A DNA stretch of 64,000 nt from Cellulomonas gelida. GTDB taxonomy: Bacteria > Actinomycetota > Actinomycetes > Actinomycetales > Cellulomonadaceae. Both the position numbers and the translations under genes were made by a program. The number at the start of each line of letters is the position of its first letter. The first letter of the stretch is position 1. A model generated the notes under the pieces. It was given only the letters and a program-made list of their open reading frames with translations. It was not told where the DNA came from and made no database searches. Location of the stretch: contig NZ_BJLQ01000003.1 of the NCBI RefSeq assembly GCF_006538725.1, positions 62,001 to 126,000 of the forward strand, read 5' to 3'. Below are positions 24,245 to 36,863 of the stretch, in pieces.

Positions 24245-25384
24245 GTGTCCTTCGACGACCTCCCGCGCTCGCCGTCGGGACGCATCCCGCAGTGGGTGAT
24301 CGACGAGGCCCAGGGGAGGGCGGCGACACCCCCACCCTGGCGTGCGGACGCCTACGACACGTCGGCCGAGGCCGCCGCGCAGGCGGCGTGGCGTGCGGGA
24401 CGGCGTGCCGGCCCGGCCGGTCTGCCGCGCAACATCGTCGGCGACCAGGACTGGCAGTACGTCCACCCGGGAGCGCGACCTCAGCGCGGCCGGAGGACGT
24501 TGCGGGTGCGGCGCGCGCGCTGGGCCGTGGGGGTGCTGTGCGGGCTCCTCGGTGCCGCGTGGGTCGGGGTGTGGTTGCAGCAGCTGCCCGAGCTCTCGTG
24601 GGACGCGGTCATGGCCGAGCTCTCGCGCAAGCCCGTGAGCCGCGCCGACCTCGAGGCGACGGGGACGCTGCTCCCGCCCGAGTCGGTGCCCGGCGGTGGG
24701 GGCATGGGCGGTCCCGAGCCCGGCCACGAGGAGGCGGCCGCGCCGCTCGGCGCACCCGCGCCGGTCGACTGGGACGGCGCGCCGTATGCGTTCCTCTCCA
24801 CGCAGGCCCGCCCCGACGGGCTCGAGGTGCCCGTGACGTGGTCGCCGTGCCGGCCCGTGCACTACGTGGTCAACAGCGCCGGAGCGCCTGTGGGGTTCGC
24901 CGACGACGTCGCCACGGTGGTGGCCGAGCTGGCGGACGCGACCGGGTTCGTGTTCGTCGACGACGGTCCGACGGACGAGTCGGCAGGCCCGGACCGGCCG
25001 ATCTACCAGCCCGAGCGCTACGGCCGACGGTGGGCGCCGCTGCTCGTGCAGTTCTCCGACGAGACGCTCCAGTCGGGGCTCGAGGGTGACGTCGTGGGGC
25101 AGGGCGGGCCGCGCACGGTCCGCCGTGAGGACGGGCTGCTCGTCGCCGTCTCCGGCACGGTCTGGCTCGACGCCTCGCTGCTCGAGAGCCAGCCCGTCGA
25201 CGCCGAGCCCGCGCACGTCGGGGTGCTGCGGCACGAGCTGGCGCACGCGCTCGGGCTCGACCACGTCGAGGACCGGACCCAGCTGATGAACCCCGAGACG
25301 CGCGGCGAGTTCACGACGTTCCAGTCGGGCGACCTGTACGGCCTGTCCCAGCTCGCCCGCGGGGTGTGCGCGCCGGACCTGTGA
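24245..25384 (+). CDS. Membrane-anchored matrixin-like zinc metalloprotease
   Basis: 379 residues from GTG 24245. A cytoplasmic segment of about 95 residues rich in Arg and Ala precedes one membrane helix (WAVGVLCGLLGAAWVGVWL). The outer part carries the zinc motif HELAHALGLDH, first histidine at residue 330, followed by a Met-turn-like QLMNP. This is the metzincin/matrixin active site, so the enzyme should cut extracellular proteins or peptides. The start may be leaderless: GATGAT at 24234-24239 ends 5 bases upstream. The gene is divergent from ligC. Confidence 0.85.
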   Translation: MSFDDLPRSPSGRIPQWVIDEAQGRAATPPPWRADAYDTSAEAAAQAAWRAGRRAGPAGLPRNIVGDQDWQYVHPGARPQRGRRTLRVRRARWAVGVLCGLLGAAWVGVWLQQLPELSWDAVMAELSRKPVSRADLEATGTLLPPESVPGGGGMGGPEPGHEEAAAPLGAPAPVDWDGAPYAFLSTQARPDGLEVPVTWSPCRPVHYVVNSAGAPVGFADDVATVVAELADATGFVFVDDGPTDESAGPDRPIYQPERYGRRWAPLLVQFSDETLQSGLEGDVVGQGGPRTVRREDGLLVAVSGTVWLDASLLESQPVDAEPAHVGVLRHELAHALGLDHVEDRTQLMNPETRGEFTTFQSGDLYGLSQLARGVCAPDL

Positions 25385-28861: not shown

Positions 28862-28905
28862 GGGGACTTCAGTCCCCTCATCGGCGCGCGCCGCGAACTT
28901 ACGAT
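28862..28905 (+). promoter_or_regulatory. DosR/DevR-type box and -10 element before the pyruvate:ferredoxin oxidoreductase operon
   Basis: GGGGACTTCAGTCCCC at 28862-28877 is a perfect 6-base inverted repeat around TTCA. It matches the mycobacterial DosR core GGGACTWWAGTCCC at all but one W position (TC instead of WW). TACGAT at 28900-28905 is a good -10 hexamer, putting the start of transcription near 28912. The palindrome centre (28869.5) would then be at about -42.5, the usual place for DosR at activated promoters. The motif could alternatively act as a terminator hairpin of the gene ending at 28823. Confidence 0.6.
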
Positions 28906-28992: not shown

Positions 28993-31900
28993 GTGGCCGT
29001 CCCGGAGCCCGTCCGCACGGTCCAGTCCACGACTCGCACCCGGACGCGCACAGTGACTGCTGACCAGCCGAAGTACCCGGGCATCCCGGACGTCATCAAC
29101 GGGAACGGCGCCGTTGCCCACGTGATGAAGCACGTGTGCGGCGGGGTGATCGGCTACCCGATCACGCCCTCGACAGAGATCTCCGAGACGTTCGAGGCGG
29201 CCCGGGCCGAGGGCCAGCTCAACGTCTGGGGCAAGCATCCGTTCTTCGTCGAGGCCGAGGGTGAGCACTCGGCGCAGAGCGGTGCGTTGGGCGCGGCCCT
29301 CACGGGCGGGAACTTCATCTCCAACGCCTCGTCGAGCCAGGGCATCCTCTACGCGCTCGAGTCGCACTACGTGACCGTGGGCAAGAAGATCGGTGGCTTC
29401 GTGCTGCAGGTCGCCGCGCGCGTGGTGAGCAAGCACTCGCTCAACGTGATGGCCGGGCACGACGACATCTACGCGCTGCTCCCGGCCGGCTACACGGTCC
29501 TGTTCGGGTCCAACCCGCAGGAGGCGGCCGACCTCGCGGCGATCGCGTACCGGACGTCGTCGCTCTCGCTGATCCCGGTCGCGAACACGTTCGACGGCTT
29601 CGCCACGAGCCACGTCATGAGCGAGGTGCTGCTGCCCGAGCCGGACCTCCTGCGGGAGTACCTGGGCGACCCCGCCGGGCGGATCCCCGCACCGACTGTC
29701 GCGCAGGAGATCCTGTTCGGCGCCAAGGGACGCGTGTTCCAGCTGAACCAGTACCTCGACCGGCACGTGGTGGACTTCGCGGCCGACGACCTGTCGGCGC
29801 TGCGGGCCCACCTGGCGGCGATCGCGGACAAGGTCGAGGCCGACGACGCCGGCGACCTCGTCGGCGAGACCGCGGTCTGGGTGCCTGACGACCTGCAGGC
29901 GCAGTGGCGCCGGGCCTGGGTGAACGCGTGGCCTCAGGGCACGCGCCAGCTCGTGCCGGCCCTCGTCGACCCGCACAACCCGGGGCTCACGGGCCCGGTG
30001 CAGAACCAGCCAGACTTCCAGGCCGGCGCGGTGGACCACCGCACGCACTTCGTCTCCTCGGTGCCGTCGCTGGCCCGTCAGGCGATGGCGGAGTACGGCG
30101 AGCTGACCGGCCGTGAGTACTCCCCGGTCATGGCGTACGACTGCGAGGACGCCGACTACGTCATGGTCGGGCTCGGCTCGATCACCGACGACGTGCGCGC
30201 CGTCCTGCCGTACCTGCGGTCGCAGGGGCTCAAGGTCGGCGTCGTCTCGGTCAAGCTGCTGCAGCCGTTCCCGGAGGCCGAGCTGGTTGCCGCGCTCGCA
30301 AGCGCGAAGTCCGTCACGGTCCTCGAACGGTCCGACGACACCGCGCTGACTCGCCTCGTCACGCAGGCGCTGTTCCGTGCGCGGTCGAACGCGTCCCACC
30401 CGGACGAGTTCCCCGGCATCCCGGCGCTGACCGCGACCCCTCGCCTGACGACGGCGATCTTCGGCCTCGGCGGGCACGACGTCCAGCCGCGGCATCTGGT
30501 GGCCGCCTTCAAGAACATGGTGTCGCCGACCGGCTCGCCGCTGGTCTACATCGGCTCGCAGTTCTTCAGCGACACCCCGTCCGGCGAGCTCGCCGGGATC
30601 CAGGAGAAGCTGCGCGCCGCGTACCCGGAGACCGAGCTCATGGCGCTCGTCACGGAGCCGAACCCGCAGGTCCTGCCCGACGAGGCGCTGCGCATCCGGT
30701 TCCACTCGGTCGGCGGCTACGGCACCATCGCCACCGGCAAGCTCCTGACCGACATCCTCGCCGGGGTGCTCGGCATGTACTCCAAGTCGGCGCCCAAGTA
30801 CGGCTCGGAGAAGAGCGGTGCGGCGACGAACTTCTACATCACCCTGTCGCCGGAGCCGGTGCTGCTCACGAATGCCGAGCTCGAGGACGTCGAGGTCGTC
30901 GTCTCCCCGGACCACAAGGCGTTCATCCACACCAACCCGCTCAAGGGACTGGCGGTGGGCGGGACGTTCATCATGCAGTCCGACCTGGCGCCGATCGACG
31001 TGTGGCGCAGCCTGCCCGCGCACGCGCGGCGGACGATCCGCGAGAAGGAGATCGCGCTCCTGGTCATGGACGCCTTCAGCGTCGCGAAGAAGCACGCCCC
31101 GACGCCCGAGCTCGAGACCCGCATGATGGGCATCGCGTTCATCGGCGCCGTCGTCGGCTGGGTCGACCGGGTCTCCCAGGGCGCCACGCGCGACGAGATC
31201 CTCGAGAAGGTGCGCCACGAGCTGACGAAGAAGTTCGGTCGCAAGGGCGACGCGATCGTCAGCTCCAACATGGCGGTGATCACCGACGCGATCGCGGCGG
31301 TCCACCCGATCGACTACGACACCGACGAGCTCGTGGCGGTCGACGCCGAGCCGGCCGCCGTGCGTGCCCGGTCCGTGGCGCTCTCGGCGTCGATGTGCCC
31401 GGTCGCGGCGGAGCCGCGCGCGACCGCGCTCTTCGACCCCGCCTACTACGAGGACCTCGCCGCGCGCCCGTTCCGCGAGGGCACCGTGGGGGAGTCGCCC
31501 GTGCTCCCCGGCGCCGGGCTGTTCATGCCGGTCGGCACGGGCCTGCACAAGGACAAGGGCATCTTCCGGCGCACCGTGCCGGTGTTCGACCCGACCGCCT
31601 GCACCGGCTGCCTCGAGTGCGGCATCGCCTGCCCCGACGCGGCGATCCCGAACACCCTGCACGAGATCCACGACCTCGTGCGCGCGGCCATCGACGGCCT
31701 GGACGCCCCCGAGCCGCAGCGCGAGTCCCTGCGCGCGGTGGCCTACGTCTGGTCCGAGCAGATCCGCGAGGGCCTGCGGGCGGACGGCGGCGCGACGTCG
31801 CTCGCCGCGGTGGCCGCCGCCACGGTCCCGGACACCGGCCAGCGTGCGCTCGCGCGGCACGCGACCGCCGTCGTCGAAGCGCTCGCGGCCTTCCCGGTCG

Positions 31901-34035
31901 CGCGGACGCGTCCGTTCTTCGACTCGATGGAGAAGGAGACCCCGGGCACCGGTGCGCTGTTCTCCGCGGTCGTCGACCCGTGGAAGTGCACCGGCTGCCT
32001 GCAGTGCGTCGACGTGTGCGGCCCGCACGCACTGGTCGCCGCCGAGCAGGACGCCAGCCTCGTCGACCTGCTCGAGCAGCGGTTCGAGACCATGGCGGCG
32101 CTGCCCAGCACGCCGAAGCGGTTCGTCGCCGACGCCGCGACGCCGGACGGCGACGTCAAGCGGATCGTGCTCGACCACGCGAACTACTACGCCATGGTCG
32201 GCGGGCACGGCGGCTGCCGCGGGTGCGGCGAGGTCACCGCGATCCGCCTGATGACCGCGCTGTCCCGGGCACTGGGCGAGGAGCGCAAGCGGACGCACGT
32301 CGCCGAGCTCGAAGGCACGATCGAGCAGCTGGCCGCCAAGCTCGCCACCGTCGAGGACGCGGACCGTCGCGAGCACCTCGGCTCGCTCATCGGCGCCCTC
32401 GACAAGGCGCTGTACCTCTACGAGGGCGGCCCCACCGGCACCGGCCCTGCCTCGACGGTGATCGCGAACTCGACCGGGTGCTCGTCGGTCTACGCCTCGA
32501 CGATGCCCTTCCAGCCGTACCTCGACCCGTGGGTCAACAGCCTGTTCCAGGATGCGCAGCCCTTGGCCGTCGGCATCTACGAAGGTCTCGCCTCGCAGCT
32601 CGTCCCGGAGGTCCGCGCCCTGCGCGACGCCGCGCTCGAGCTGGCCGACGCCTACGACCCCGCAGTCCACGGCAAGGCCGGCGCGACGCTGACGTGGCAC
32701 GAGCTCACGGCACAAGAGCGCGCGCTGCTTCCGAACGTCCTGACGATCGGCGGCGACGGCGCGTCCTACGACATCGGCTTCGGCGCCATGTCGCGCGTGC
32801 TGACCAGCGGCACGCCGATCAAGGCACTCGTGCTGGACACCGGCGGCTACTCCAACACCGGAGGCCAGGCCTCGACGGCGTCGCTCACCGGCCAGGACGC
32901 CGACCTGGCGCGCTACGGCAAGGCCCACGCGGGCAAGCGCGAGGTGCGCAAGGAGATCGGCGTCATCGCGGCGTTCCACCCGAACGTCTTCGTCGCCACC
33001 ACCGCCACGGCGCTGCACGGGCACTTCCTCGCCGCGGCGATGAGCATGCTCGAGTTCGACGAGGGTGCGGCGGTCATGGAGATCTATGCCCCGTGCGGCA
33101 CGGAGAACGGGATCGCCGAGGACCTGTCGAACCGCCGCTCGCGGCTCGCGGTCGAGAGCCGGGTCAGCCCGCTGTTCGTGCACGACCCGCGCCGGGGTGG
33201 CACGCTGCCGGAGCGGTTCAGCCTGGACGGCAACCCGGACGTCGACGCGCTGTGGAGCACCTCGACCCTCGAGTACGTCGACGAGAGCGGGAACCTGCAG
33301 CTGCTGCAGGCACCGCTGACGCCGGCCGAGTTCGCGCTCGGCGAGGTGCGCTTCGCCAAGCAGTTCACGAAGGTCGCGGACGACGACGACGCGCACCTGG
33401 TCCCGATCGCCGAGTTCGTCGAGCTGTCCGACGACGAGCGGGCCGGCAAGGTGCCGTTCGTCCACGCGACGGACGCGGGCAAGCACCTGATCAAGGTCGC
33501 GTGCTCGTCGGCCATCGTCGCGCTCGTCGAGGACCGCAAGCACCACTGGCAGACGCTGCAGTACCTCGCCGGCTTCGGCGAGGCGCGGCTGTCCGCGGAG
33601 CACAGGGCGCAGCTCGCCGACCTCACCGCCAAGTACGAGGCGGCGTCCACGGCCCGCGAGACCTCGCTCGACGAGATCGCCGCGGCGATGGCCGAGCTCG
33701 CGTCGTCGTCGGCCGCCCCGGCGAGCCCGCCGACGTTCTCGTTCAGCGGCGCAGCGGCTGCTCCGGCCGCGGCGCCCCCAGCGGCCGCGGCGACGGCGCT
33801 CGCGGACCGGCCCGTCTGGCTCGACCCGGCCGACCAGCACCTGTGCAACGACTGCGGCACCTGCTACCAGGAGCTCCCGGCGCTGTTCGAGAAGGCGACG
33901 GTCGTCATCGACGGCGAGGCGCGTGTCGTCGGCCGTCTGAAGGAGAGCGCGCTCGACGGCCTTGAGGTCACCCCGGACATGGCCAAGCGCATCGCCCGGG
34001 TCAAGGCCACCTGCGACGCGGAGATCATCCACTGA
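28993..34035 (+). CDS. Pyruvate:ferredoxin (2-oxoacid) oxidoreductase-like fused protein, NifJ family
   Basis: 1680 residues from GTG 28993 (GTG 29053 is possible). Domain order: thiamine-diphosphate/pyruvate domain with GYPITPSTEISE near residue 55; domain II; gamma-type domain around residues 570-670; two 4Fe-4S motifs, CTGCLECGIACPDA near residue 870 and CTGCLQCVDVCGPH near 998; and the cofactor-binding domain with GGHGGCRGCGE near 1075 and GGDGASYDIGFG near 1255. A further CNDCGTC segment lies near residue 1615. Classic NifJ proteins are about 1170-1200 residues, so this one has extra segments and an extra C-terminal ferredoxin-like module. The family reaction is pyruvate + CoA to acetyl-CoA + CO2 with electrons to ferredoxin; the actual 2-oxoacid is not proven. 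Its stop overlaps the next start (TGATG). Confidence 0.85.
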   Translation: MAVPEPVRTVQSTTRTRTRTVTADQPKYPGIPDVINGNGAVAHVMKHVCGGVIGYPITPSTEISETFEAARAEGQLNVWGKHPFFVEAEGEHSAQSGALGAALTGGNFISNASSSQGILYALESHYVTVGKKIGGFVLQVAARVVSKHSLNVMAGHDDIYALLPAGYTVLFGSNPQEAADLAAIAYRTSSLSLIPVANTFDGFATSHVMSEVLLPEPDLLREYLGDPAGRIPAPTVAQEILFGAKGRVFQLNQYLDRHVVDFAADDLSALRAHLAAIADKVEADDAGDLVGETAVWVPDDLQAQWRRAWVNAWPQGTRQLVPALVDPHNPGLTGPVQNQPDFQAGAVDHRTHFVSSVPSLARQAMAEYGELTGREYSPVMAYDCEDADYVMVGLGSITDDVRAVLPYLRSQGLKVGVVSVKLLQPFPEAELVAALASAKSVTVLERSDDTALTRLVTQALFRARSNASHPDEFPGIPALTATPRLTTAIFGLGGHDVQPRHLVAAFKNMVSPTGSPLVYIGSQFFSDTPSGELAGIQEKLRAAYPETELMALVTEPNPQVLPDEALRIRFHSVGGYGTIATGKLLTDILAGVLGMYSKSAPKYGSEKSGAATNFYITLSPEPVLLTNAELEDVEVVVSPDHKAFIHTNPLKGLAVGGTFIMQSDLAPIDVWRSLPAHARRTIREKEIALLVMDAFSVAKKHAPTPELETRMMGIAFIGAVVGWVDRVSQGATRDEILEKVRHELTKKFGRKGDAIVSSNMAVITDAIAAVHPIDYDTDELVAVDAEPAAVRARSVALSASMCPVAAEPRATALFDPAYYEDLAARPFREGTVGESPVLPGAGLFMPVGTGLHKDKGIFRRTVPVFDPTACTGCLECGIACPDAAIPNTLHEIHDLVRAAIDGLDAPEPQRESLRAVAYVWSEQIREGLRADGGATSLAAVAAATVPDTGQRALARHATAVVEALAAFPVARTRPFFDSMEKETPGTGALFSAVVDPWKCTGCLQCVDVCGPHALVAAEQDASLVDLLEQRFETMAALPSTPKRFVADAATPDGDVKRIVLDHANYYAMVGGHGGCRGCGEVTAIRLMTALSRALGEERKRTHVAELEGTIEQLAAKLATVEDADRREHLGSLIGALDKALYLYEGGPTGTGPASTVIANSTGCSSVYASTMPFQPYLDPWVNSLFQDAQPLAVGIYEGLASQLVPEVRALRDAALELADAYDPAVHGKAGATLTWHELTAQERALLPNVLTIGGDGASYDIGFGAMSRVLTSGTPIKALVLDTGGYSNTGGQASTASLTGQDADLARYGKAHAGKREVRKEIGVIAAFHPNVFVATTATALHGHFLAAAMSMLEFDEGAAVMEIYAPCGTENGIAEDLSNRRSRLAVESRVSPLFVHDPRRGGTLPERFSLDGNPDVDALWSTSTLEYVDESGNLQLLQAPLTPAEFALGEVRFAKQFTKVADDDDAHLVPIAEFVELSDDERAGKVPFVHATDAGKHLIKVACSSAIVALVEDRKHHWQTLQYLAGFGEARLSAEHRAQLADLTAKYEAASTARETSLDEIAAAMAELASSSAAPASPPTFSFSGAAAAPAAAPPAAAATALADRPVWLDPADQHLCNDCGTCYQELPALFEKATVVIDGEARVVGRLKESALDGLEVTPDMAKRIARVKATCDAEIIH

Positions 34036-36863
34036 TGAGCGCCACCGACACGCCGCCGCGGTCCAGCCAGGACGACGTCCTGCGCTGGGTCGGGGCGCGC
34101 ACCGCGCTCGACGCGACGCGCGAGGAGGTCGAGGCTCTCGACGCGACACCCGGGGTCGCGACCTTCCGCCACCAGCTCGACCTGCTCGAGCGTCGGCTCG
34201 TCGCCGACCCCCGCGCCTTCCGCGACCTGTTCATCGCCGACGGCATGGCGGCGGTGGCCTGGGAGTTCCGGCAGCCCGAGCTCGGCCGGGACTTCGTCCT
34301 GCGCCTGTGGGACATGCTCCTGCGGGACGACGACGTCTCGACGCTGCTCATGCGGTTCGTCTGGGACCTGCCGCTCGGCAAGAAGCGTCTGTTCGTCAAG
34401 GCGGTCGACGCGCACCTGTCCGACCGCTACCCGATGGTCAAGGGCCTCGCGACCGACTGGCCGGCCGGCAGCACGATCCCCCCGTACGTCCGCGACGCCG
34501 ACGATCGCGCCGAGGACTTCGGCCTGGTCAACAAGGGCTACCTCGGCTACATGGACCTCGGCTACACCCGGCGGGAGGTCGAGCTGCTCGTCTGGCTCGA
34601 GGCGATCCGGGACAAGCAGTGCTCCGACGCTCCGTGCGAGCTCGGCGTGTTCCTCGAGGCGCACCAGCCGCCGAAGTTCGGCTGCCCGGTGAAGATCCAC
34701 ATCCCCACGATGATGGAGCTCCTCGGCACGGGGCGGTTCACCGAGGCCCTCGAGCTGCTGCACTCGTGCAACCCGCTGCCGAACGTCACCGGGCGCGTGT
34801 GCCCGCAGGAGCTCCAGTGCCAGGCGGCGTGCCTGCACAAGACGTCGATGCAGATCGGCCAGCTCGAGTGGTTCCTGCCGGAGCGTGACAAGCTCGCCCA
34901 CCCGGGCGCGGACGCGGCGCGGTTCGCCTCGTTCCCGAACCCGTGGACCATGGCGGCCAAGCCGCCCGTGGCGATCGTCGGGTCCGGCCCGTCCGGGCTC
35001 ATCAACGCGTACCTGCTGGCCGCCGAGGGCTTCCCGGTCACCGTGTTCGAGGCGTTCCACGAGCTGGGTGGCGTGCTCCGCTACGGCATCCCCGAGTTCC
35101 GCCTGCCGAACGAGCTGATCGACGACGTCGTGCGCAAGATCCGCCTGCTCGGCGGCCGCTTCGTCACGAACTTCGTCGTGGGCAAGACCGCCTCGCTGCA
35201 GGACCTGCGCGACGCGGGCTTCTGGAAGATCTTCGTCGGCACCGGCGCGGGCCTGCCGATGTTCATGAACGTGCCCGGCGAGCACCTGCTCAACGTCATG
35301 TCGGCGAACGAGTTCCTCACGCGCGTCAACCTCATGCACGCCGACTGGGAGAGCACCGAGACACCGCTGCCGTTCGTGCGGGGCAAGAACGTGCTGGTCA
35401 TCGGCGGCGGCAACACCGCGATGGACGCGGCCCGCACGTCCCGGCGCCTCGGCGGACACGTGACGATCGTCTACCGGCGTACCCGCGCCGAGATGCCGGC
35501 TCGCGTCGAGGAGCTCGAGCACGCGCTCGAGGAGGGCATCGCGCTGCTGCCGCTGCGGTCGCCGTCGGAGTTCCTCGCCGACGGCAGCACCGGGTTCGTC
35601 AAGGCGGCGACGCTCGACGTCATGGAGCTCGGCGAGCCCGACGCGTCCGGCCGTCGACGCCCGCTGTCGACGGGCAGGACCGAGCAGGTCGAGGCCGACC
35701 TGGTGATCATGGCGCTCGGCAACTCGTCGAACCCGATCATCAAGGACTCCGAGCCGCGCATCGACGTCTCCCGGTGGGGGACGATCAACCTGGCCGCGGA
35801 CGGCACGCAGCAGACCACGCTCGAGGGCGTGTACTCCGGCGGCGACGCGACCCGCGGCGGGTCCACCGCGATCAACGCGGCCGGCGACGGCCAGGCCGCC
35901 GCGCGCGAGATCATCGGCGACGTCGACGTGCCGCACGCCGAGGTCACGCGCATGGTCGAGGCCGCCCACGGCTACACCGACATGGCGGCCTCGGACGCCG
36001 TGATCCTCGCCAAGCGGAACCTGTCGCCCGGCATCGAGGAGCTCGTCGTCCGGGCGCCGGTCATCGCGCGGTCGGCGCAGGCGGGTCAGTTCGTCCGCGT
36101 GTTCCCGCGGCTGGGCGGCGAGCTCATCCCGCTCACGCTGGCGGACTGGGACGCGGAGGCAGGCACGGTCTGCCTCGTCGTCCAGGCGATGGGCGTCAGC
36201 TCGATCGAGATGAACGCGATGCAGCCCGGCGACGTCCTCGCCGGCATCGCCGGCCCACTCGGTCGACCGTCGGACGTGCACCGGTACCCGGACGACGAGA
36301 CCGTCGTGTTCACCGCCGGCGGCCTCGGCCTGCCGCCGGTGTACCCGATCATGCGCGAGCACCTGCGGCTCGGGAACCACGTCACGCTCATCGCCGGCTT
36401 CCGCACCAAGGACCTCATGTTCTGGACGGCGGACGGTGAGCGGGTCGCCGCCCTGCAGGCCGAGTTCGGCGACCGCCTCGAGGTGGTCTACGCGACCAAC
36501 GACGGCTCGTACGGCGTCGAGGGCTTCGTCACCAGGCCCCTCGGGGAGATGCTCGAGGCCGGTCGGAAGATCGCCGAGGTCGTCACCATCGGCCCGCCGA
36601 TGATGATGCGGGGCGTCTCGGACCTCACCCAGCCGTACGGCGTGCGCACGGTCGCGTCGCTCAACTCGATCATGGTCGACGCGACGGGCATGTGCGGTGC
36701 GTGCATGGTGCCCGTGGTGATCGACGGAAAGCTGGTCCGCAAGCACGCGTGCATCGACGGACCCGAGATCGACTCGCACCTCATCGACTGGGACAAGTTC
36801 TTGCCCCGGTTCGGGCTGTTCCACGCTCAGGAGCAGGAGGCTCGGACGCGACACGGCCTGTAG
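34035..36863 (+). CDS. Fused NfnB/GltD-type and NfnA/PyrK-type flavoprotein (NAD(P)H:ferredoxin oxidoreductase-like)
   Basis: 942 residues. After about 220 N-terminal residues comes the GltD-type iron-sulfur segment (CNPLPNVTGRVCPQELQCQ and following C) near residue 245. Then an FAD-binding GSGPSGLINAYLLAAEG near 314 and an NAD(P)-binding GGGNTAMDAARTSRRLGG near 455. From about residue 655 a ferredoxin-reductase/PyrK-like domain follows, ending in GMCGACMVPV and CIDGPE, the 2Fe-2S ligand region of NfnA/SudB. The fusion order is B then A in one chain. NfnAB bifurcates electrons between NAD, NADP and ferredoxin; here it would link the ferredoxin reduced by the upstream enzyme to NAD(P)H. The N-terminal 220 residues match nothing I know. 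Confidence 0.8.
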   Translation: MSATDTPPRSSQDDVLRWVGARTALDATREEVEALDATPGVATFRHQLDLLERRLVADPRAFRDLFIADGMAAVAWEFRQPELGRDFVLRLWDMLLRDDDVSTLLMRFVWDLPLGKKRLFVKAVDAHLSDRYPMVKGLATDWPAGSTIPPYVRDADDRAEDFGLVNKGYLGYMDLGYTRREVELLVWLEAIRDKQCSDAPCELGVFLEAHQPPKFGCPVKIHIPTMMELLGTGRFTEALELLHSCNPLPNVTGRVCPQELQCQAACLHKTSMQIGQLEWFLPERDKLAHPGADAARFASFPNPWTMAAKPPVAIVGSGPSGLINAYLLAAEGFPVTVFEAFHELGGVLRYGIPEFRLPNELIDDVVRKIRLLGGRFVTNFVVGKTASLQDLRDAGFWKIFVGTGAGLPMFMNVPGEHLLNVMSANEFLTRVNLMHADWESTETPLPFVRGKNVLVIGGGNTAMDAARTSRRLGGHVTIVYRRTRAEMPARVEELEHALEEGIALLPLRSPSEFLADGSTGFVKAATLDVMELGEPDASGRRRPLSTGRTEQVEADLVIMALGNSSNPIIKDSEPRIDVSRWGTINLAADGTQQTTLEGVYSGGDATRGGSTAINAAGDGQAAAREIIGDVDVPHAEVTRMVEAAHGYTDMAASDAVILAKRNLSPGIEELVVRAPVIARSAQAGQFVRVFPRLGGELIPLTLADWDAEAGTVCLVVQAMGVSSIEMNAMQPGDVLAGIAGPLGRPSDVHRYPDDETVVFTAGGLGLPPVYPIMREHLRLGNHVTLIAGFRTKDLMFWTADGERVAALQAEFGDRLEVVYATNDGSYGVEGFVTRPLGEMLEAGRKIAEVVTIGPPMMMRGVSDLTQPYGVRTVASLNSIMVDATGMCGACMVPVVIDGKLVRKHACIDGPEIDSHLIDWDKFLPRFGLFHAQEQEARTRHGL

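Follow-up and report, generated by a model that had tools for sequence, protein, structure and literature searches.

An oversized pyruvate:ferredoxin oxidoreductase with a C-terminal ferredoxin domain is genetically linked to a fused Nfn-type flavoprotein in Cellulomonas gelida and distant genomes

PFOR (pyruvate:ferredoxin oxidoreductase) is taught as handing its electrons to free ferredoxin. Could some forms of the enzyme carry their own ferredoxin and serve a dedicated electron acceptor? This question is raised by two adjoining genes of Cellulomonas gelida, found in a 64,000-nucleotide stretch of contig NZ_BJLQ01000003.1 (the window; all coordinates are window positions), one encoding an oversized PFOR homolog, here termed PFOR-XL, and the other a fused Nfn-type flavoprotein. 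A sequence-only reading of the window had proposed that the two form one module coupling pyruvate oxidation to NAD(P), an interpretation that as a whole is partly supported by our analysis. Both open reading frames are present with the lengths it had given, 1680 and 942 amino acids, and their stop and start codons overlap as TGATG:

28993-34035, plus strand: PFOR-XL gene, GTG start, 1680 amino acids, a PFOR homolog with extra parts
34035-36863, plus strand: fused Nfn-type flavoprotein gene (NfnB part, then NfnA part), ATG start, 942 amino acids
34033-34037, plus strand: TGATG, the stop/start codon overlap of the PFOR-XL and Nfn genes, with one shared base

PFOR-XL is indeed about 450-500 residues longer than usual, because the three solved homodimeric PFORs comprise only 1171, 1231, and 1232 amino acids.

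Homologs of both proteins adjoin in distant genomes, and the gene pair is therefore not due to chance. In a sample of 149 genomes of the window's order, the flavoprotein was matched in 15 at E <= 1e-100. Fourteen of these, the window's included, encode the fused form, and one (G272) encodes classical separate NfnA and NfnB. PFOR-XL lies directly upstream of the fused Nfn in all 14; besides the window's pair, 10 are complete and three are cut by contig ends, and a candidate start codon overlaps the PFOR-XL stop in nine of the 10 complete pairs. Among 299 genomes of the phylum of Rhodopila (G349), the fused Nfn was found in nine at E <= 1e-150, with full-length PFOR-XL beside it by coordinates in the same nine; the tenth PFOR-XL of that sample (G619) is of the Rnf kind described below. 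In the window's phylum sample, 68 of 198 genomes match PFOR-XL at E <= 1e-20, the match being full-length only in the window's genome and otherwise fragmentary, as with ordinary PFOR or PorA; long open frames of G086, G134, and G181 matched weakly. The class of G344 has PFOR-XL in one of 337 genomes, G344 itself, and yielded no further cases lacking the C-terminal tail discussed below. Candidates scored per genome numbered two in the phylum, Rhodopila-phylum, and G344-class samples, five in the order sample, and four in a Gemmatimonadota sample, so that misses are possible.

The module is rare and patchy in the samples, since few genomes carry it and the fused Nfn is absent from the two congeneric and eight confamilial genomes listed in the order sample. 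A scan of named genomes, from which 80 of 578 confirmed relatives were kept, found hosts in Cellulomonas (the nearest, 91%), Propionibacteriaceae, Tetrasphaera, Mobiluncus, Rhodopseudomonas, Accumulibacter, Rhodoferax, and Vibrio. Nfn is encoded directly downstream in 59 of the 80 kept loci; 15 end too early and six are without it (L097, L115, L118, L131, L140, and L141). The flavoprotein was not found away from PFOR in the samples taken, so that a wide separate occurrence of the two genes, which would have spoken against the sequence-only reading, was not borne out there.

The feature of PFOR-XL that could connect it to a partner is its C-terminus, for which the sequence-only reading had described a ferredoxin-like module, recovered here as a Fer4_15 match at residues 1614-1680:

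33574-33804, plus strand: long helix (residues 1528-1572) and predicted disordered linker (1573-1604) of PFOR-XL, from AlphaFold2 model m0b2ff48ad842
33805-34032, plus strand: C-terminal single-cluster ferredoxin arm with C1618, C1621, C1624, and C1674; PF13459, 26.8 bits against a cut-off of 22.4

In the model, the helix is followed by a linker with a predicted local distance difference test score (pLDDT) below 50 and then by a folded domain comprising residues 1605-1680. In 93 relatives, Ala makes up 32% of the segment preceding the tail, Gly 13%, and Ser and Pro 10% each, and the four tail cysteines are invariant in all 60 tailed rows (the window plus 59 of 61 fetched stretches, selected for reaching the tail). 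The C-terminus thus appears to resemble a swinging arm.

Tail and partner largely go together. A total of 123 PFOR-XL rows were classified; 17 were dropped where a contig end leaves tail or partner undecided or the protein is short, leaving 106, and removal of five near-duplicates left 101, of which L086 and L238, where the partner is not decidable, were uncounted, giving 99. L082 (Nfn), L224 (Rnf), and L239, which the script called tail-less owing to a frameshift or assembly gap, were counted as tailed with a partner because tblastn finds the tail piece further on, and also rnfC for L239; the uncorrected calls would give two rows with a partner and no tail and one row with neither. Of the 99 rows, tail and partner are both present in 92 (Nfn in 73, Rnf in 19) and both absent in five, whereas two have the tail only and none has the partner only (Fisher's p 2.9e-7, which ignores kinship), counts that cannot separate gain from loss. 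A FastTree tree built from the core, with the tail excluded, offers four independent contrasts, which agree in direction: Mobiluncus curtisii (tail, Nfn) versus M. mulieris (neither), L222 versus L236 in Gemmatimonadota, Rhodospirillum sp./Pleomorphomonas (neither) versus the Tropicimonas group, and the deep L237 branch. A fused Nfn of the window's family was not found elsewhere in the genomes of L097, L118, and L131. The proposal that the two genes form one module is well supported by their adjacency (14 of 14 and nine of nine sampled genomes), by the start/stop overlap in nine of 10 pairs, and by tail-partner agreement in 97 of the 99 rows. As separate observations made by eye, genes resembling formate-dehydrogenase accessory and diaphorase-type genes lie downstream in L115, and a ferredoxin-NADP+ reductase-like gene (L118:15678-16532) lies about 2 kb downstream, on the other strand, of the tail-less Pleomorphomonas PFOR-XL, of which it is perhaps the acceptor route.

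The second partner is that of a sister branch, found mostly in Gemmatimonadota. On plasmid records of Gemmatirosa and Persicobacter (~1.1 Mb), rnf genes neighbor the gene of a PFOR-XL whose tail is of the same kind, and PFOR-XL of this type was present in 24 of 121 Gemmatimonadota genomes sampled. Among 20 Gemmatimonadota regions fetched, rnfC lies directly downstream on the same strand in 16; L234 is cut off inside PFOR and has rnfB upstream, and L236-L238 have neither an rnf gene in the stretch nor a tail, the stretch of L238 stopping 279 bp past the gene. The gene next downstream of a tailed PFOR is also rnfC in L047, L048, L141, and L192. The usual order is rnfB, PFOR, rnfC, rnfD, rnfE, rnfA; in Persicobacter (L048), rnfC follows PFOR and rnfB is at the far end. 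By locus, the tailed PFOR-XL is next after rnfB, and before rnfC where the contig continues, in L047, L141, L192, L220-L229, L231-L235, and L239, the contig of L230 starting at PFOR; in L141 only, an rnfG-like gene was recognized by eye between rnfD and rnfE. L237 and L238 represent a deep tail-less PFOR-XL branch of Gemmatimonadota, with proteins of ~1610 amino acids that are 35-38% identical to the Persicobacter protein. A pyruvate-driven Rnf complex is possible in Gemmatimonadota and in one genome of the Rhodopila phylum (G619). Since the tailed PFOR of the sister branch sits inside rnf operons in other phyla, the arm probably acts as a plug-in through which pyruvate oxidation is coupled to a dedicated machine for NAD(P) reduction. 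The linkage of PFOR to Nfn is accordingly strong without being exclusive: PFOR-XL occurs also with Rnf or with neither, and Nfn is therefore not its sole setting.

The flavoprotein has the reversed fusion order that had been claimed for it, an NfnB/GltD half (~192-626) followed by an NfnA/PyrK half (~657-917), and its N-terminal extra part without a Pfam match exists but comprises the first 190 residues, not 220:

34035-34604, plus strand: N-terminal helical domain, residues 1-190, no Pfam match; from the model
34608-34883, plus strand: two-cluster domain, R192-D193-x2-C196-x4-C201-x15-C217PV, then GRVC256PQExQC262x3C266, and E278; from alignment and hhalign
34968-35912, plus strand: NfnB-like FAD and NADP(H) Rossmann domains, residues 312-626; from Pfam and hhalign
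36003-36830, plus strand: NfnA/PyrK-like part with FAD, NAD, and [2Fe-2S] motifs (D882, C887, C890, C906), residues 657-932; from alignment

It is a member of NF009415 (1622.1 bits over residues 11-941; cut-off 1519), and its model (mean pLDDT 81.8) matches P. furiosus NfnI in Foldseek for both the large subunit (5jca_L, TMt 0.84) and the small subunit (5jca_S, TMt 0.90). The reversed fused order is real, but as an architecture it is not new, NF009415 and the Pattern C Nfn described in the text of PMC6405883 having preceded it. The N-terminal helical domain is a candidate docking domain.

What does set the flavoprotein apart is its distal cluster. The classical motif, as given in the text of PMC6405883, is RCx2Cx4Cx3CPV; the window flavoprotein has RDx2Cx4Cx15CPV, an invariant Cys-to-Asp change with a longer loop. 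Of the two motifs of the classical NfnAB two-cluster domain, the first is thus missing and the second is present. The motif residues of the domain, including R192, D193, C196, C201, C217, and C266, are invariant in 52 of 52 sequences; in a larger set D193 is found in 69 of 69, and C196 and C201 in 68 of 69. Retained are GRVCPQExQCx3C, the proximal-cluster Glu (E278), the motifs for FAD and NADPH, and the [2Fe-2S] site with its Asp/Cys3 ligands. In hhalign against classical NfnB, R192-D193 falls on the R-Cys and C196 on the second Cys; C201 falls in a gap and is equated with the third Cys by the x4 spacing. Asp193 probably ligates the distal cluster (Asp/Cys3), a prediction from sequence, since pLDDT is below 50 across the distal-cluster loop 197-216. 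His210 was considered as a replacement ligand and rejected: it is His in only 20 of 69 rows, and Asp193, which by its spacing takes the position of the first Cys, is invariant. According to docking discussed in the text of PMC6405883, ferredoxin is thought to bind Nfn near the distal cluster, and the changed motif therefore sits where a new partner would be expected to leave its mark.

The core of PFOR-XL is that of a PFOR. A Pfam search detected POR_N, PFOR_II, POR, Fer4, and Fer4_15 domains, and POR_N, domain II, gamma, and TPP (thiamine pyrophosphate) domains follow one another in the order of the PFOR superfamily:

29143-29658, plus strand: POR_N domain, residues 51-222 (T58, E91, and R143 inside); from Pfam and conservation
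29695-29952, plus strand: insert, residues ~235-320; from alignment, without a Pfam match above cut-off
30712-31293, plus strand: POR (gamma-type) domain, residues 574-767; from Pfam
31600-31632, plus strand: first internal cluster motif, C870, C873, C876, C880, invariant in PFOR-XL rows with letters there
31654-31947, plus strand: insert, residues 888-985, between both internal 4Fe-4S motifs, mostly helical in the model; no Pfam match
31987-32019, plus strand: second internal cluster motif, C999, C1002, C1005, C1009; from alignment
32215-33225, plus strand: TPP-binding beta-type region with proximal cluster ligands C1075, C1078, C1163, C1368 and YSNTGGQ (N1288); from alignment

The best solved relative is the Moorella PFOR (E 5.6e-84), which is also matched by the model of residues 860-1680 in Foldseek (E 5e-18). 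T58, E91, R143, and N1288, which correspond to TPP/substrate positions of the D. africanus PFOR structure, do not vary in the 101 PFOR-XL rows wherever letters exist, and neither do the 12 cysteines that ligate the three core [4Fe-4S] clusters. The loss of essential cofactor ligands, a possible objection to the sequence-only reading, is thus not seen in PFOR-XL, where the catalytic residues and cluster ligands checked are all kept, and its substrate is presumably pyruvate, as judged from these residues. PFOR-XL scores 393.3 bits with TIGR02176, the classical PFOR equivalog (cut-off 911.35). Scores with the PadG and PadI models of phenylglyoxylate:NAD+ oxidoreductase, 116 and 64 bits, do not reach the cut-offs of 700 bits each, and no P450-reductase-like (flavodoxin/FNR) C-terminus of the Euglena type is found among the Pfam matches of PFOR-XL. 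The added length lies in three inserts (~235-320, 888-985, and 1092-1150) and the C-terminal extension. The insert ~235-320 has a median of 85 amino acids in the Nfn-linked clade, 13 in Rnf-linked rows, and 2-3 in three ordinary PFORs; as a dock for Nfn it was ruled out, being retained by tail-less relatives of the same clade. Foldseek of both models gave no match for the Nfn N-terminal domain or the PFOR-XL inserts among the best 50 matches listed.

When might such a module be used? Upstream of the pair there is a DosR-like palindrome:

28863-28876, strand not assigned: DosR-like palindrome GGGACTTCAGTCCC, exact match, 117-130 bp upstream of the GTG start

It is one of eight distinct exact sites of this kind in the genome versus none for a reversed control pattern; with one mismatch allowed, the window has three matches versus 2.68 expected, no excess over chance. 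In Cellulomonas sp. (L062) the palindrome lies at about equal distance upstream of PFOR-XL. Exact FNR/FixK-type boxes are found within ~300 bp upstream in nine of 116 PFOR-XL loci versus 0.065 expected by shuffling (mononucleotide shuffles and an assumed start, with several of the nine loci close kin), and in none of 1129 windows inside genes. Rex boxes were not found upstream among 114 loci. The genome also encodes the aerobic-type pyruvate dehydrogenase AceE. A role of the module at low oxygen would be the natural reading. Elsewhere in the window, the open reading frame at 24245-25384 has, by eye, a zinc-metalloprotease-like HELAHALGLDH motif.

We incline to the view that the pair constitutes one low-oxygen system, in which PFOR-XL passes pyruvate electrons via its tethered ferredoxin to the dedicated Nfn, probably confurcating them with NADH onto NADP+. 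PFOR-XL would use TPP to turn pyruvate and CoA into acetyl-CoA and CO2, a chemistry taken from the PFOR family and compatible with the residues checked, and electrons would move along its three usual [4Fe-4S] clusters. A fourth [4Fe-4S] cluster, in the ferredoxin domain on its flexible Ala/Gly/Ser/Pro linker, would replace free ferredoxin and swing to the flavoprotein, much as the lipoyl arm of pyruvate dehydrogenase moves. By analogy with Nfn structures, the arm may dock at the remodeled, probably Asp/Cys3-ligated distal cluster, from which electrons would reach the FAD of the NfnB half by way of the proximal cluster. The Nfn reaction, as given in the text of PMC5861303, is 2 Fdred + NADH + 2 NADP+ -> 2 Fdox + NAD+ + 2 NADPH, and the net reaction would then be pyruvate + CoA + NADH + 2 NADP+ -> acetyl-CoA + CO2 + 2 NADPH + NAD+. 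Physical association of the two proteins, arm movement, the use of NADP+ and NADH, and confurcation are what we infer. In a wider and somewhat more tentative generalization, to which we give a little less than even weight, tailed PFORs would be modular pyruvate machines whose swinging ferredoxin takes the place of the soluble one and plugs pyruvate oxidation directly into interchangeable acceptors that conserve energy. In Actinomycetota and Proteobacteria the acceptor would be a confurcating transhydrogenase; in Gemmatimonadota, Persicobacter, and some others it would be Rnf, an ion pump.

Several observations weigh against the proposed confurcating system. The Cys-to-Asp change could shift the potentials that confurcation depends on, and the text of PMC5861303 describes P. 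furiosus NfnAB2 as apparently non-bifurcating. Both points also favor a rather unlikely alternative, in which the complex and its tethered arm are as proposed and there is no confurcation, the module being a plain pyruvate:NADP+ (or NAD+) oxidoreductase with an idle or regulatory NfnA half; phenylglyoxylate:NAD+ oxidoreductase and the Euglena-type pyruvate:NADP+ oxidoreductase are precedents. However, an idle half would not need the conservation seen here: all 52 of 52 sequences keep D882, C887, C890, C906, and the motifs that flank them in the NfnA half, and these match NfnI. There are other difficulties for the proposed system. With only four contrasts, a sign test cannot go below 0.125, and the fourth is the deep branch of L237 and L238, which are flagged as a long branch in the FastTree tree. 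The tail-less Rhodospirillum genome (G342; L097) has another fused Nfn, in NfnA-NfnB order, and the 85-amino acid insert, being kept in tail-less relatives, is no sign of a partner. The DosR-like box is found in only two of 116 loci, L071 being among those without it.

Two betaproteobacterial metagenome-assembled genomes by title (L115 and L140; G343 and G346) keep the tail and have no such Nfn in their assemblies, which likewise speaks against the proposed system and favors two ordinary operon enzymes linked by free ferredoxins, the tail being a non-essential exit or protective domain. We consider this improbable, because tail and partner are absent together in the four independent contrasts and the distal-cluster motif of the Nfn departs from the classical one in 52 of 52 sequences. 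The module could also run mainly in reverse: in photoheterotrophs and organisms that form storage polymers, NADPH would be bifurcated to reduce the arm, which would drive the formation of pyruvate from acetyl-CoA by reductive carboxylation. NfnAB is reversible according to the text of PMC5861303, and the hosts include Rhodopseudomonas, Rhodopila, and Accumulibacter, whose physiology would suit this; but Cellulomonas (the nearest kin), Propionibacteriaceae, Mobiluncus, and many other hosts are fermenters, for which oxidation is the natural direction, and mainly reversed operation seems to us very improbable.

A PFOR that carries a tethered ferredoxin and serves an acceptor of its own would provide a channel for electrons of very low potential in organisms also exposed to oxygen, and the uncharacterized Pattern C Nfn proteins would gain a role. 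The sister branch would suggest a pyruvate-driven Rnf pump in Gemmatimonadota. The scheme is directly testable, as the tail is removable and the partner exchangeable. Pattern C Nfn, PFOR, and Rnf are already known; new here are the linkage of PFOR-XL to this Nfn, the sister branch in rnf operons, the tail-partner rule, the Cys-to-Asp change with its longer loop, and the upstream DosR-like and FNR boxes. A literature search covering titles and abstract beginnings, outside figures, supplements, and most subscription journals, found no account of the ferredoxin arm, of the rule joining tail and partner, of the Asp change, or of a PFOR gene set between rnfB and rnfC. In the text of PMC6405883, Pattern C Nfn is assigned to Actinobacteria and Proteobacteria and the fused kinds are described as not characterized in detail; PFOR is named in the abbreviation list of its Figure 2, for species that the text does not resolve, and the neighbor relation may therefore have been drawn before. 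The texts of PMC6085437 and PMC9973337, respectively, place the Mobiluncus curtisii Nfn on the earliest Nfn branch and give the R. palustris Pattern B Nfn another role.

Among known systems, the homodimeric PFORs (Moorella 6cin and Desulfovibrio africanus 1b0p) share with PFOR-XL the domain order, the TPP residues, and the three [4Fe-4S] clusters with all ligands; PFOR-XL adds the three inserts and the C-terminal helix-linker-ferredoxin arm and lies far under the TIGR02176 cut-off. The window flavoprotein belongs over its full length to Pattern C Nfn (NF009415; Mobiluncus curtisii, PMC6405883), with the same fused order and N-terminal extension; in the text consulted, that account describes the fusion and mentions neither a link to a tailed PFOR nor the Cys-to-Asp change. 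With NfnAB of Thermotoga and Pyrococcus (4ylf, 5jca) it has in common both halves, FAD, NADPH, the proximal motif with its Glu, and the [2Fe-2S] site, and it differs in its reversed fusion, the 190-residue N-terminal domain, RDx2Cx4Cx15CPV, and a PFOR-linked gene. The tailed PFOR of the sister branch sits in operons of the Rnf complex, whereas the window pair is without a membrane part or rnf gene. The phenylglyoxylate:NAD+ oxidoreductase PadEFGHI is likewise a 2-oxoacid oxidoreductase with an NAD-reducing flavoprotein subunit, but there the subunits are separate, the NfnA half is lacking, and the substrate is another. In the pyruvate:NADP+ oxidoreductase of Euglena and Cryptosporidium, PFOR is likewise connected to a reductase for NADP; that reductase is a P450-reductase-like domain fused to the enzyme, whereas here the connection would be made by a ferredoxin arm and a separate Nfn.

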